Of a stretch of DNA of 36,550 nt, positions 30,229 through 36,550 are shown one piece after another. The stretch comes from a virus. The notes under the pieces are model-generated. The model had not been told where the DNA came from, searched no databases, and saw nothing but the letters and a program-made list of their open reading frames with translations. The DNA lies in the IMG/VR virus record IMGVR_UViG_3300010354_000245, positions 1 through 36,550 of that record. One strand, 5' to 3'. Position numbers and translations under genes: made by a program. Numbering within the stretch: position 1 is the first letter of the stretch; each line of letters opens with the position of its first letter.

Positions 30229-32160
30229 TTATGATCTTACTAAATTCCCGTCGCTGTAACTTGGTGATACAATATAATTAGATGCTGAAGGATCGAGTCC
30301 TGAGGCAATCTCATCAACAACAGTATCAAAAATACTATTATTAATATCTAGTTTCAAATATAAATCCTGTACTCCAATAACATCATTTGATTGTGGAGAC
30401 ACTGATATCTCAATTATTTGTTGTCCATCTTTTTTCTTGGAAGTTGAAATAATACTAATTGGATTAATTGTCAAAGTTCCACTGTCATAGTAAATTGTTC
30501 CCACATTTCTTTTTATAATGGTTGGTGATGTAGATAAAACATTTGGAACAGTGAAAAGAAATAGTGATCCAGTGGTTCTATTTGAATTGGGAACATCTGA
30601 AAGATAAACATCTTCTTGAACGTTTTCAACTCTAAATGCACTTGTTTTAATGTTATATCCACTCATATTTCCAATATGAAACTGATTTCCAAACGAAATA
30701 CTATACTCTGCAAGTGCAGATGGTTCAATACGAAGATCTCTCCTCATTTGAACTGTTGTAATATTCGATGTAATTGATTCGTGACTATCATCAACAACTT
30801 TTAGGAATTTACTATATTTAAATCTTGCTCCATATCTATTTAATTCGGAAGATTCTGAATACTTCTGGGCATTATTTTGAACTTGACTTGAAATGAACTG
30901 TGAGGAGGGTGCTAAGTTTGAGTTATAATATACTTTTGTATTTGTTTCTACATACAAATATTTTAAATCTAAAATTTCTGGTACGATTCCTGCAACTGCA
31001 TACTTCTTTAACTTCATCTTAATATTTTGTTTTAAGATGTTAGACAGAAAATCACCAGACCTAGGTTTAATTGATATGAAAACTTTTCCGTATTGGGGTG
31101 GTTTTAACTCCTCACCACCAAACACAGAAATCGATTCTGTTTCTGGATAAATTTTTGCGGGTATAAGAGTCTCATAATCATTTGCGGTTAATGCTCTGTT
31201 CTGCGAAGCATAAATTCTCGGAGCAAACTTTTTAATAGAATCTAGAGACTCAATATTTTCTCCCCCTGAGGATGGCGATGAAGTTATCGGTAATGAGATT
31301 CCACTTGTTACCGTATAATCTACGCCATTACGGGTGTATGTAATTCTTCCAGCAAAAGCAAATTGACTTACGCCATTTCCAGCATCGCCATTGGAGGTAA
31401 CATAAGAAACATCAATAAAGTTTCCGTCTGTTAATGGTTTTCCAAATACACCATCACCAAAAATTAATTCATATCTCTCACCAGATATTTCTTGAATGAA
31501 GAAAATTCTAGATGTTGAATCAATAGAGAATAAACTATCCTGTAAAATATATTTTGATGATATTGTAGATGATTCACTTGGTCTTACAGTTACTCGGATT
31601 AAATTAGTATCAATGCCCGAGTTTGGAAGAATGAATTTTTGATTTTTGTTATTGCTATTATATGTAAAACTACTGTTAAGTAAAAATCCCTCATAAATTT
31701 CAATGTCTTGAAATGTAGCAACATTGTTTATGACTGGAACTGTAATATCTTCTGGGATGGAGAAGACGAAGGATTGCGTACCAAAGGCGCTTGTGGTCGT
31801 CGCTACGGTGCCTTTGTGAAGAGTTAGGGTTACTGGTGCGGGATTGGTTAAATTAGTTGTATCTACAAAAAAAGTAATTAACGCCTTTGCAGACTTTCTT
31901 GATCTTGGTACGTACCCAATGTTTCTTGCTAATGAAACTACGTTTTCTCTGAGAGTTGCACTATCAATGAAAACCTCATTCGCAACCATGTTTGCGTTGT
32001 ATGAGGTGATATAAGTGTTATATGCTAAGACATCAAGAATCGTTGAAAGATTAGATCCTTCAAAATCATAATCAGTAAATTGAGAGTTAGATCTCAAATA
32101 ATCAACAAGAGTAACTTTGATTTGGTTAAAATCTAGATTGGAAAAATTTATTAATGCCAT
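30229..32160 (-). CDS. 6: Baseplate wedge protein gp6
   Basis: A 643-aa protein (T4 gp6 is 660 aa), homologous to the P2 gpJ class. It forms the inner ring of the baseplate and links wedges. Recognised by the N-terminal part: FSNLDFNQIKVTLVDYLRSN, then DYDFEGSNLSTILDVLAYNT, FIDSATLRENVVSLARNIGY and VPRSRKSAKA, which follow T4 gp6 (SATFRSSVVSLARNIGYIPRSRRSA). The middle carries IQEISGERYELIFGDGVFGK, a typical J-like turn. The start follows directly on the stop of gene 25 with no gap, and the gp7-like gene follows 4 bases after its own stop. The operon order 25-6-7 is as expected for this group. Confidence 0.95.
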   Translation of the reverse strand: MALINFSNLDFNQIKVTLVDYLRSNSQFTDYDFEGSNLSTILDVLAYNTYITSYNANMVANEVFIDSATLRENVVSLARNIGYVPRSRKSAKALITFFVDTTNLTNPAPVTLTLHKGTVATTTSAFGTQSFVFSIPEDITVPVINNVATFQDIEIYEGFLLNSSFTYNSNNKNQKFILPNSGIDTNLIRVTVRPSESSTISSKYILQDSLFSIDSTSRIFFIQEISGERYELIFGDGVFGKPLTDGNFIDVSYVTSNGDAGNGVSQFAFAGRITYTRNGVDYTVTSGISLPITSSPSSGGENIESLDSIKKFAPRIYASQNRALTANDYETLIPAKIYPETESISVFGGEELKPPQYGKVFISIKPRSGDFLSNILKQNIKMKLKKYAVAGIVPEILDLKYLYVETNTKVYYNSNLAPSSQFISSQVQNNAQKYSESSELNRYGARFKYSKFLKVVDDSHESITSNITTVQMRRDLRIEPSALAEYSISFGNQFHIGNMSGYNIKTSAFRVENVQEDVYLSDVPNSNRTTGSLFLFTVPNVLSTSPTIIKRNVGTIYYDSGTLTINPISIISTSKKKDGQQIIEISVSPQSNDVIGVQDLYLKLDINNSIFDTVVDEIASGLDPSASNYIVSPSYSDGNLVRS

Positions 32161-32562
32161 TTACCTTGTAGGTTGTAACACGAATTGTAACTGTTGCGCT
32201 GGAACATCGGCACCAACAACTCTATAATTAATAATTACGTCAAAAGATCCATTATCATAATCAGGATAAACTCCAACATCAAGAAGACTCACTCTTGGTT
32301 CATAATTAGAAATTGATGAGATAATTTCATCTTTAATAATAGATGAAGAAATCTCATCAACGTTTTCAAATAACGAACGACTGACTCTAGATCCAAAATC
32401 CTGATTGAAAAACTTTTCTCCAGGATAGGTAAAAACAATATTACGAATCGAGCGATTTATAGCACCTTCATTTTTCAATGCAATAAGATCAGCATTCAGA
32501 GGGTTAGTCTGAAAAGACATGCTAATATCTTTAAATCCTTGACTAACTCTCTCTAGAGGCAT
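32161..32562 (-). CDS. 25: Baseplate wedge protein gp25
   Basis: A 133-aa protein (T4 gp25 is 132 aa), the lysozyme-fold-like core wedge protein that touches the sheath and initiates contraction. Diagnostic segments are DISMSFQTNPLNADLIALKN, EGAINRSIRNIVFTYPGEKF, NQDFGSRVSRSLFENVDE and SNYEPRVSLLDVGVYPDYDN; the EPR motif is the family signature. The length matches the family exactly. Its stop abuts the ATG of gene 6. An AATAAATA octamer overlapping the stop of the preceding small gene lies about 20 bases upstream and probably starts the late baseplate transcript. Confidence 0.95.
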   Translation of the reverse strand: MPLERVSQGFKDISMSFQTNPLNADLIALKNEGAINRSIRNIVFTYPGEKFFNQDFGSRVSRSLFENVDEISSSIIKDEIISSISNYEPRVSLLDVGVYPDYDNGSFDVIINYRVVGADVPAQQLQFVLQPTR

Positions 32563-32874: not shown

Positions 32875-33093
32875 TTACGGGGTTTCTATCCCGAAATTTG
32901 AGATATTTTGTCGATTAAAAGTGTAATTTTTCTGAATTCTGATGTCTCTGTTGTTAAATACCCAACATTCTCCTGTACTATCTAGGAACACAACCCATTC
33001 TAAATCGTGTTCTTGTGAACGATCAATCATAAAAAATGCCCAACCCTTACCTTTGGGGGTAAGAACTGGGATTTGAGGGTTAAGTTGTAGCAT
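32875..33093 (-). CDS. Small hypothetical protein (72 aa)
   Basis: A 72-aa protein with alternating beta-type pattern (NPQIPVLTPKGKGWAFFMID, then EHDLEWVVFLDSTGECWVFN and NRDIRIQKNYTFNR). The sequence is familiar as a conserved small ORF of cyanophages, with the WVVFLD.TGECW core, but I know of no function. It could be a small beta-barrel (SH3- or OB-like) by pattern. Its start overlaps the last 14 bases of the SET-domain gene, so translation is probably coupled to it. Confidence 0.8.
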   Translation of the reverse strand: MLQLNPQIPVLTPKGKGWAFFMIDRSQEHDLEWVVFLDSTGECWVFNNRDIRIQKNYTFNRQNISNFGIETP

Positions 33094-33451
33094 TTTTGAT
33101 ACTTAATGCATCTTCTTCAAAGGGAAAAGTCAACTCTTCACCTCTTTCTATGTCTCTTAGAGCAAATATTTCATCACTCGTGCCGCCGACATTAGCATTT
33201 TCACTCCAATTGATAAAACGATCATGATCAAATGGGAATCTATGCAGGTTAGTAACGGGATCTAACCACCCATAGTGAAGAATATACTCTTGTGCCTTCT
33301 GTGGTAATTCAGAAAATTGTTCTGGTGTCCATTCCCGATCAAGTCCAGGAGTAAACTCCCAGACTTTAGTTCCTTTAGGAATGAATTCAGATGCAAATAT
33401 TCCGAATCCATGAATAGAACTTTTTTCGAGATAGGACTTAACCAATAACAT
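33080..33451 (-). CDS. SET-domain protein (probable protein-lysine methyltransferase)
   Basis: A 123-aa protein consisting only of a SET domain, the same size class as the Chlorella virus vSET enzyme. Segments in order: KSSIHGFGIFASEFIPKGTK at about 10-29 (SAM-binding HGxGIFA motif), a variable middle, RFINWSENANVGG at 78-90 (the place of the canonical RFxNHS.xPN motif), and LRDIERGEELTFPFEED at 98-114 (the place of GEELTxDY). The canonical NHS reads NWS, and the usual catalytic Tyr of the DY segment is Phe, so activity is uncertain. I chose the ATG at 33451 because it overlaps the upstream TGA; an in-frame TTG lies one codon earlier. SET enzymes use S-adenosylmethionine; the substrate here is unknown. 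Confidence 0.88.
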   Translation of the reverse strand: MLLVKSYLEKSSIHGFGIFASEFIPKGTKVWEFTPGLDREWTPEQFSELPQKAQEYILHYGWLDPVTNLHRFPFDHDRFINWSENANVGGTSDEIFALRDIERGEELTFPFEEDALSIKNATT

Positions 33452-33594
33452 CAACCCTTACCTTGTCCGCGATATCTTTTCTTACGTCCATTACGAGACG
33501 TTGCGCTGAGTAATGTACGAGCTGAGCGTCCTTGTCGTGTTTTCTTAGGTGCTCCAGGTTCAAAAATAACCTTACTGCTTCCACCTTTAGCCAT
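33451..33594 (-). CDS. Small very basic protein (47 aa)
   Basis: A 47-aa, strongly basic protein: MAKGGSSKVIFEPGAPKKTR at the start, then QGRSARTLLSATSRNGRKKR and YRGQGKG. It has about 14 Arg/Lys and only one Glu. It is preceded by a strong GGAGG Shine-Dalgarno sequence inside the previous gene, and its TGA overlaps the ATG of the SET gene. The charge suggests nucleic-acid binding or association with the ribosome or nucleoid, which is inference. Its position directly before a lysine methyltransferase-like gene makes it a possible substrate. The family is familiar in cyanophages but unnamed. Confidence 0.75.
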   Translation of the reverse strand: MAKGGSSKVIFEPGAPKKTRQGRSARTLLSATSRNGRKKRYRGQGKG

Positions 33595-35818: not shown

Positions 35819-35992
35819 TCACCAACGGTCAGGTGTATTTAAGTCCTCAACGTATGCTTCACACTTTTCTGCAGGTTCCAGTTTGAATAACTTTTCCCAG
35901 TCAATCTGATGTGGGTCGAAGTCACCGAAAACTGACAAATCCAGAGTGATTCTATAACGCTGCTTCTGCGCTTGTTGATAAGCAACTGACAT
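35819..35992 (-). CDS. Small hypothetical cyanophage protein (57 aa)
   Basis: A 57-aa ORF: MSVAYQQAQKQRYRITLDLS, then VFGDFDPHQIDWEKLFKLEP and AEKCEAYVEDLNTPDRW. The start has a CGGAGCG ribosome site about 9 bases upstream and lies about 30 bases from a good promoter. The YRITLDL...DFDP..IDW.KLF...YVEDL.TPDRW pattern is familiar as a small cyanophage protein. A longer ORF in another frame (35839-36051) covers the same DNA, but its translation looks non-protein-like and I reject it. Function unknown. Confidence 0.78.
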   Translation of the reverse strand: MSVAYQQAQKQRYRITLDLSVFGDFDPHQIDWEKLFKLEPAEKCEAYVEDLNTPDRW

Positions 35993-36022: not shown

Positions 36023-36051
36023 AGTATAAAATGCCCTTGGATTTGTGTCAA
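36023..36051 (-). promoter_or_regulatory. Sigma70-type promoter of the tiny-ORF cluster
   Basis: Minus strand TTGACA (36051-36046), 17-bp spacer, TATACT (36028-36023). It lies about 30 bases upstream of the ATG at 35992, with the CGGAGCG ribosome site in between. It probably drives the 57-, 84-, 49- and 41-aa genes as an early unit. Confidence 0.75.
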
Positions 36052-36062
36052 GGTCTTGGGAG

Positions 36063-36070
36063 TATTTATG
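36063..36070 (-). promoter_or_regulatory. Late-promoter-like octamer CATAAATA
   Basis: Minus strand CATAAATA, 12 bases upstream of the -35 box of the 36023-36051 promoter. It has the same octamer as those before structural genes. If used, the tiny-ORF cluster would have both an early and a late start. By itself this is a weak signal in AT-rich DNA. Confidence 0.35.
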
Positions 36071-36146: not shown

Positions 36147-36175
36147 TTGACATTTTTGCGAGGTCGTGATACAAT
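36147..36175 (+). promoter_or_regulatory. Plus-strand sigma70-type promoter
   Basis: TTGACA (36147-36152), 17-bp spacer, TACAAT (36170-36175). The -35 is perfect and the -10 has one mismatch. It is the only strong plus-strand signal in a window whose genes are otherwise all on minus, and no plus-strand gene follows it. Confidence 0.7.
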
Positions 36176-36194
36176 GCACGCTTAGATCACAAGG

Positions 36195-36296
36195 TCCTGA
36201 CACATTTATAAGCACATAAGTATCGACACTCAGAGACATTTATAAGCACATAAATGCAACCCCTCAGAGACACTTATCAGACACAATCATCAGGTC
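36195..36296. repeat. Three tandem units of 34 bp
   Basis: An 18-base identical core, ACATTTATAAGCACATAA, occurs at 36202-36219 and 36236-36253, exactly 34 bases apart. A third, decayed unit starts at 36263: CTCAGAGACA repeats the flank at 36229, again 34 bases on, and continues CTTATCAGACA. On the minus strand the cores read TTATGTGCTTATAAATGT and contain TATAAATG, one base from the T4 late consensus TATAAATA. Confidence 0.75.
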
Positions 36297-36302
36297 TTAT
36301 TC

Positions 36303-36322
36303 TCAATTAAACACCTAATTGA
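36303..36322. repeat. Stem-loop 1 (7-bp arms)
   Basis: TCAATTA, 6-base loop, TAATTGA: a perfect inverted repeat, immediately followed by stem-loop 2. AT-rich, so weak in RNA on its own. Confidence 0.6.
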
Positions 36323-36349
36323 TTCTCAATAAACTATACTTATTGAGAA
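36323..36349. repeat. Stem-loop 2 (10-bp perfect arms)
   Basis: TTCTCAATAA, 7-base loop, TTATTGAGAA: a perfect 10-bp inverted repeat. The left arm shares TTCTCAAT with the region before stem-loop 1, so alternative pairings are possible. It is not followed by a U-run on plus, so it is not a terminator; it could be a protein-binding palindrome or an RNA structure. Confidence 0.7.
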
Positions 36350-36405
36350 CGATTTAACAAACACAAATACATTTTTTAATACATTTTTAATTAAAAAACA
36401 ATAAA

Positions 36406-36429
36406 AAAAGAGGGTTTTTGCCCTCTTTT
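36406..36429. terminator. Bidirectional Rho-independent terminator
   Basis: AAAAGAGGG, 6-base loop, CCCTCTTTT. On the minus strand it lies six bases after the stop of the partial right-edge gene and is followed by further Ts. On the plus strand the stem ends in TTTT, which would end the candidate plus-strand RNA. Confidence 0.85.
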
Positions 36430-36434
36430 CGCTA

Positions 36435-36550
36435 TTATTCAGTTGTGATACATTCAGCAGGAGATCCACAAGAGCGATAGAAGTCTACCATACGATTTGC
36501 TTCTTCAAGTGTAGCAAATGTTTGAGTTCTCCACTGTTGCTGATAGGGAG
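36435..36550 (-). CDS. C-terminal end of a small hypothetical protein (cut by window edge)
   Basis: The last 37 or so residues of a minus-strand gene entering from the right edge: PYQQQWRTQTFATLEEANRM, then VDFYRSCGSPAECITTE and TAA. The WRTQTF.TLEEANRMVDFYRSCG.PAE pattern is familiar as a small cyanophage ORF, with no function known to me. A clear intrinsic terminator follows, so it is the last gene of the operon to the right. Confidence 0.7.
   Translation of the reverse strand, partial: PYQQQWRTQTFATLEEANRMVDFYRSCGSPAECITTE

Follow-up and report, generated by a model that had tools for sequence, protein, structure and literature searches.

A probable transcription-associated, iteron-type replication origin cassette in T4-like cyanophages

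What does a promoter do on the plus strand of a virus whose genes lie on the minus strand? The 36,550-nt stretch analysed here (the window) comes from IMG/VR and is part of the genome of a T4-like cyanophage (Kyanoviridae), and among the open reading frames tested we found no plus-strand gene to contradict the preliminary description, according to which every gene is on minus. Near one end of the window, a plus-strand unit combines a promoter, tandem repeats, stem-loops and a terminator. It had been proposed to be a structured RNA serving as a sponge or decoy, or else a control or replication site. The question is of wider concern, as T4-like cyanophages are abundant in the ocean and their replication start is apparently unmapped; PMC2984593 mentions one theta origin, predicted for Syn9. 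From the analysis below, we consider that the element is probably the cassette from which T4-like cyanophages start replication, a transcription-associated origin of the iteron type.

Anatomy and neighbourhood of the element

The unit opens with a sigma70-type promoter on the plus strand (TTGACA-17-TACAAT, 36147-36175) that matches the consensus at 11 of 12 positions with a 17-bp spacer and is kept across about 90 cyanophage loci. It is convincing because of this conservation only, as the number of sites with at least 11/12 matches in the window (four) is about that expected from base-shuffled sequence (3.4). Where the transcript is expected to begin there is a conserved plus-strand leader, GCTTAGATCACAAGG (36180-36194), of which AGATCAC is nearly invariant among relatives. 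The leader is followed by two iteron-like 34-bp repeats on plus with the core ACATTTATAAGCACATAA (36199-36266; copies at 36199-36232 and 36233-36266, 76% alike). Three repeats had been described; the first two are clear, and the third (36267-36295, plus) is degenerate, so that the array amounts to 2.4 copies. It is nevertheless the top tandem repeat of the window, with a score of 101 against 46 for the runner-up. A three-site module (36300-36349) comes next, with TTCTCAA at 36300 and 36323 and TTGAGAA at 36343, giving spacings of 23 and 20 bp. The adjoining AT-rich block (36352-36411), a candidate DNA unwinding element, has 11.7% GC, the lowest of any 60 bp in the window, and a conserved core, TTTTTTAATACATTTTTAATT. 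The unit closes with an intrinsic terminator (36406-36430) that was recognised previously and is predicted here on both strands (36406-36429); being bidirectional, it would also end the minus-strand gene finishing at 36435.

A coding role was rejected. The longest plus frame inside the unit has 18 amino acids, in agreement with the earlier reading, and there is no conserved plus-strand frame among relatives. No tRNA was detected, and searches of Rfam gave no match within the element and only chance-level matches elsewhere. We also rejected tandem minus-strand late promoters within the repeats (TATAAATG), because the late motif of this phage is ATAAATA, which lies a short way upstream of several large genes on minus, as well as at 36069.

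On the other side of the plus promoter, a promoter search found a divergent early-type promoter on minus (TTGACA-17-TATACT, 36023-36051). The late-promoter motif ATAAATA (36063-36069, minus), of a type known for cyanophages (PMC2984593), faces the minus-strand genes. A small divergent gene of the family phrog_12516 (35819-35992, minus) adjoins the element in several relatives and may be considered a candidate for a role in replication. It was rejected as an obligatory partner, as P-TIM68 and S-B05 have the gene with no cassette within 900 bp. In virus AG-345-O18, the 900 bp beside this gene hold a full cassette with four exact DnaA boxes, as had been predicted. The window also encodes gp25 (32161-32562, minus) and gp6 (30229-32160, minus). 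The distance from the element to gp25 is 3.6 kb and is similar in S-SM2 and Bellamy. Near gp25, this cyanophage encodes a SET-domain protein (PF00856, E 1.7e-11; 33080-33454, minus).

A conserved cassette and its variable slot

Relatives of the element were collected from IMG/VR contigs and named phage genomes by exact-pattern and BLAST searches. The cassette was found in many IMG/VR contigs and in S-SRM01, DSL-LC03, S-SM2, Bellamy, SynMITS9220M01, S-SCSM1 and S-SCSM2R; the promoter and repeat part is without annotation in the records of all seven named phages. The promoter-and-leader part is represented by GCnnAGATCACAAG, and the alignment has a constant order of promoter, leader (AGATCACAAG), repeats, a variable slot, the AT-rich block (TATATTTTTTAATACATTTTTAATTGATTTT) and often a terminator, of which a terminator-like hairpin is present in 46 of 74 elements. 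The -10 element is weak (TAGACT) in many relatives. The repeats recur with periods of mostly 32-34 or 20-23 bp, and some relatives have exact triplicate 33-bp repeats. In four other relatives the arrays are longer and the period is shorter (about 21 bp in one), and TTTATAAG cores occur in some. In S-SRM01 the AT block shares the lowest GC value of any 60 bp in the genome, and of the nine sequences compared, four more have it within the lowest 0.2% of 60-bp GC; the block is less pronounced in DSL-LC03, S-RSM4 and S-H9-1. The AT block and the site module are apparently in reversed order in S-PM2 and S-RSM4.

We searched phage genomes with R1, a model built from the sequence of promoter and leader only. 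R1 found a single site in most of the genomes searched (most of the Kyanoviridae checked), so that a single copy is near-universal; S-SM2 had a second, weak match, and S-SM1 had two weak matches side by side. The cassette lies at 58.1 kb in S-SM2 and at 52.6 kb in Syn9. The model reached Syn9, S-PM2, Syn19, S-SSM7, S-ShM2 and S-SM1, none of which was used in building it, and gave no match in T4 or in the Prochlorococcus phages P-SSM2 and P-SSM4.

In many relatives the slot holds TTTTCCACA, which serves as DnaA box in most cyanobacteria (PMC4674748). Among 79 full elements, picked on their promoter/leader, AT block or repeat without regard to boxes, 33 have at least one exact box in the slot and 23 at least two. 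With 61 boxes in 16 kb of elements against nine in the remaining 590 kb of the contigs concerned, the motif is 247-fold enriched, compared with 3-fold for the reversed-motif control, a value that is descriptive only since the elements are related to one another. Thirteen complete genomes contain 49 boxes, of which 23 are no more than 300 bp from the R1 site, where 0.16 would be expected; a few R1 training sequences hold a box in their last columns, and the boxes of the genomes newly found with R1 are outside its matches. Syn9, S-PM2, Syn19, S-ShM2 and S-SM1, all outside R1 training, are among the genomes with boxes near the site, and in DSL-LC03 seven of ten boxes are at the element. Most box spacings are 20-22 or 42 bp; inverted partner boxes lie at 13-14 bp. 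A DnaA C-terminal DNA-binding domain was encoded in none of the 11 phage genomes tested, and control genomes were positive. We infer that the initiator in many relatives is the DnaA of the host. As a separate matter of annotation, the RefSeq record of S-PM2 lists eight tRNA features at 17.4-19.3 kb, two of which overlap the DnaA-box cluster; ARAGORN found none in 6 kb there.

The window itself has no exact TTTTCCACA, and its slot is occupied by the TTCTCAA/TTGAGAA sites; for this reason we do not class it as a DnaA-box origin. The palindrome formed by such sites, TTGATTCTCAAT-N-TTATTGAGAA, occurs in more than 100 viral contigs versus seven contigs in a collection of genomes from 84,980 species. 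In 102 distinct copies the arms are 8-10 bp apart, and a third site usually lies upstream at 23-24 bp. DSL-LC03 has both kinds of module. The DnaA boxes (20-22 bp), the TTGAGAA sites (23 and about 20-21 bp) and the repeats are all spaced near whole helical turns, and both kinds of module look like arrays of proteins phased on DNA. The module of the window may consist of sites for a putative initiator, perhaps encoded by the phage. Several contigs have a second TTGAGAA cluster about 640-730 bp from the cassette in the opposite orientation, flanked by GTGCCAGTT/AACTGGCAC and located after a small gene that by eye resembles phrog_12516. The TTGATTCTCAAT palindrome is also present more than once in one Acaryochloris metagenome-assembled genome, as part of a repeated sequence whose flanks look like those of transposable elements.

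DNA sites, RNA product or other roles

If the product of the unit were a noncoding RNA acting as a sponge, decoy or regulator, its repeats would be the binding sites for a protein or RNA, with the hairpins lending stability to the molecule. The promoter, the terminator, the conserved 5' leader and the lack of an open reading frame are all compatible with such a product, and the stem-loops described earlier are borne out by the predicted transcript of the window, which folds far better than shuffled sequences (z = -6.98) with TTCTCAATAA/TTATTGAGAA as its main hairpin. However, the arms of this hairpin are two copies of one site, and when ten sequences with the window-type hairpin were checked for compensatory mutation, none of the ten pairs was changed on both sides. 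Pairing was broken in 9 of 100 cells of the hairpin alignment, and most changes break pairs. Folding of 74 elements gave a mean z of only -1.7, with many values near 0, as inverted sites would give. Of the repeats and hairpins that relatives might have kept, the phased repeats recur, and the stem-loops differ in both presence and sequence. The incomplete occurrence of the terminator-like hairpin and the missing Rfam match also argue against an RNA product, as do the DnaA-box arrays that occupy the same slot in relatives. The conserved features look like DNA sites, and the unit may well be transcribed, in the window possibly into a stable RNA; we regard the RNA as an unlikely purpose of the element, and the proposal of a structured sponge or decoy is not upheld.

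Other roles for DNA sites have to be weighed against a replication origin. In bacteria, DnaA also acts as a transcription factor, and DnaA boxes can be transcription-control sites, which counts against the origin reading. The element might be a control region in which host DnaA, or another factor here, times divergent promoters; the early (36051) and late (36069) minus promoters do point away from the plus promoter. This is improbable, as the boxes are located 3' of the plus promoter, beside the AT block and in phased arrays, an origin-like arrangement. A packaging (pac) site or terminase start site is less probable still. It could account for the read depth of S-PM2, which rises 2-3-fold just downstream of 15.3 kb and was interpreted by the authors as packaging with terminal redundancy (PMC4503421). 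The S-PM2 cassette at 19.2 kb is near this rise, which an origin would produce equally well and which is only suggestive as a sign of one; DnaA boxes, a sigma70 promoter and an AT block would be unexpected at a pac site. The element also has a promoter and a stem-loop amid small variable genes by gp25, reminiscent of the promoter/stem-loop (PeSL) recombination cassettes that are known from T4-like phages, as cited in PMC4503421. We give this explanation hardly any credence, because many copies per genome would be expected of PeSLs, whereas R1 found about one, and because promoter and terminator stand at opposite ends with DnaA boxes in relatives.

The origin reading and known systems

Of the two roles left by the earlier proposal of a control or replication site, replication is supported by the DnaA-box arrays that relatives carry between the repeats and the AT block. 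In a replication origin of this type, host RNA polymerase would start at the conserved promoter and transcribe the phased repeats and the initiator module into the AT-rich block. An initiator protein on helically phased sites, together with transcription and possibly a persisting RNA-DNA hybrid, could open the AT block, where the phage replisome would load. The initiator would be host DnaA in many relatives and, here, some protein bound to the TTGAGAA sites. Binding, melting, use of the transcript and origin activity are what we infer from the sequence comparison. Of the features of an oriC-like origin, a box cluster is absent from the window and present in the elements of relatives, and an AT-rich unwinding element adjoins the site module. 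Because the window has no DnaA boxes of its own, the case for this phage is made from the homology of its cassette and from a site module of equivalent layout. GC skew, both at third positions and overall, was noisy in seven complete genomes, in which nearly all genes are on one strand, and had no clear switch at the element. The missing R1 matches in P-SSM2, P-SSM4 and T4 and the weak -10 of many relatives also count against an origin.

We think it nearly as likely as not that T4-like cyanophages have one shared origin cassette, in which promoter, leader and unwinding block are constant and the initiator module is exchangeable, some lineages hijacking DnaA and others, including this one, using a virus-specific three-site TTGAGAA array with a putative undescribed initiator; initiator specificity would then be swapped like a cartridge. 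Naming a cassette with host DnaA boxes makes the replication start directly testable, and such a cassette would link phage replication to the replication control of the host, a connection absent from the T4 origin model. The TTGAGAA module, for its part, would be a lead to a new initiator.

The closest comparison within T4-like phages is with oriF and oriG. In T4 oriF, a promoter is combined with an unwinding element with an R-loop (PMC3016281), and the cassette, also from T4-like phages, likewise has a promoter directed into DNA prone to unwinding. The cassette promoter, however, is of the host sigma70 type (TTGACA/TACAAT) and not a MotA middle promoter; cyanomyoviruses are without motA (PMC2984593). 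The cassette further differs in its phased repeats and in having DnaA boxes or else TTGAGAA sites, and an R-loop is putative here. The evenly spaced direct repeats recall T4 oriE, which has iterons of unknown role (PMC3016281), but the unit is 33-34 bp in the cassette versus 12 bp in oriE. Relatives' cassettes carry a DnaA-type module, and T4 has no match to the cassette. Plasmid replicons of the P1 type also use DnaA and combine iterons, DnaA boxes and an AT block, as the cassette does in relatives; they differ in that no Rep protein was identified next to the cassette, phrog_12516 being a neighbour only. Cyanobacterial host origins, compared from the literature only, resemble the relatives' cassettes in having exact TTTTCCACA arrays by AT-rich DNA. 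Unlike oriC, the cassette is located on a phage genome, away from dnaN, and its promoter and leader are constant while the box module is replaceable.
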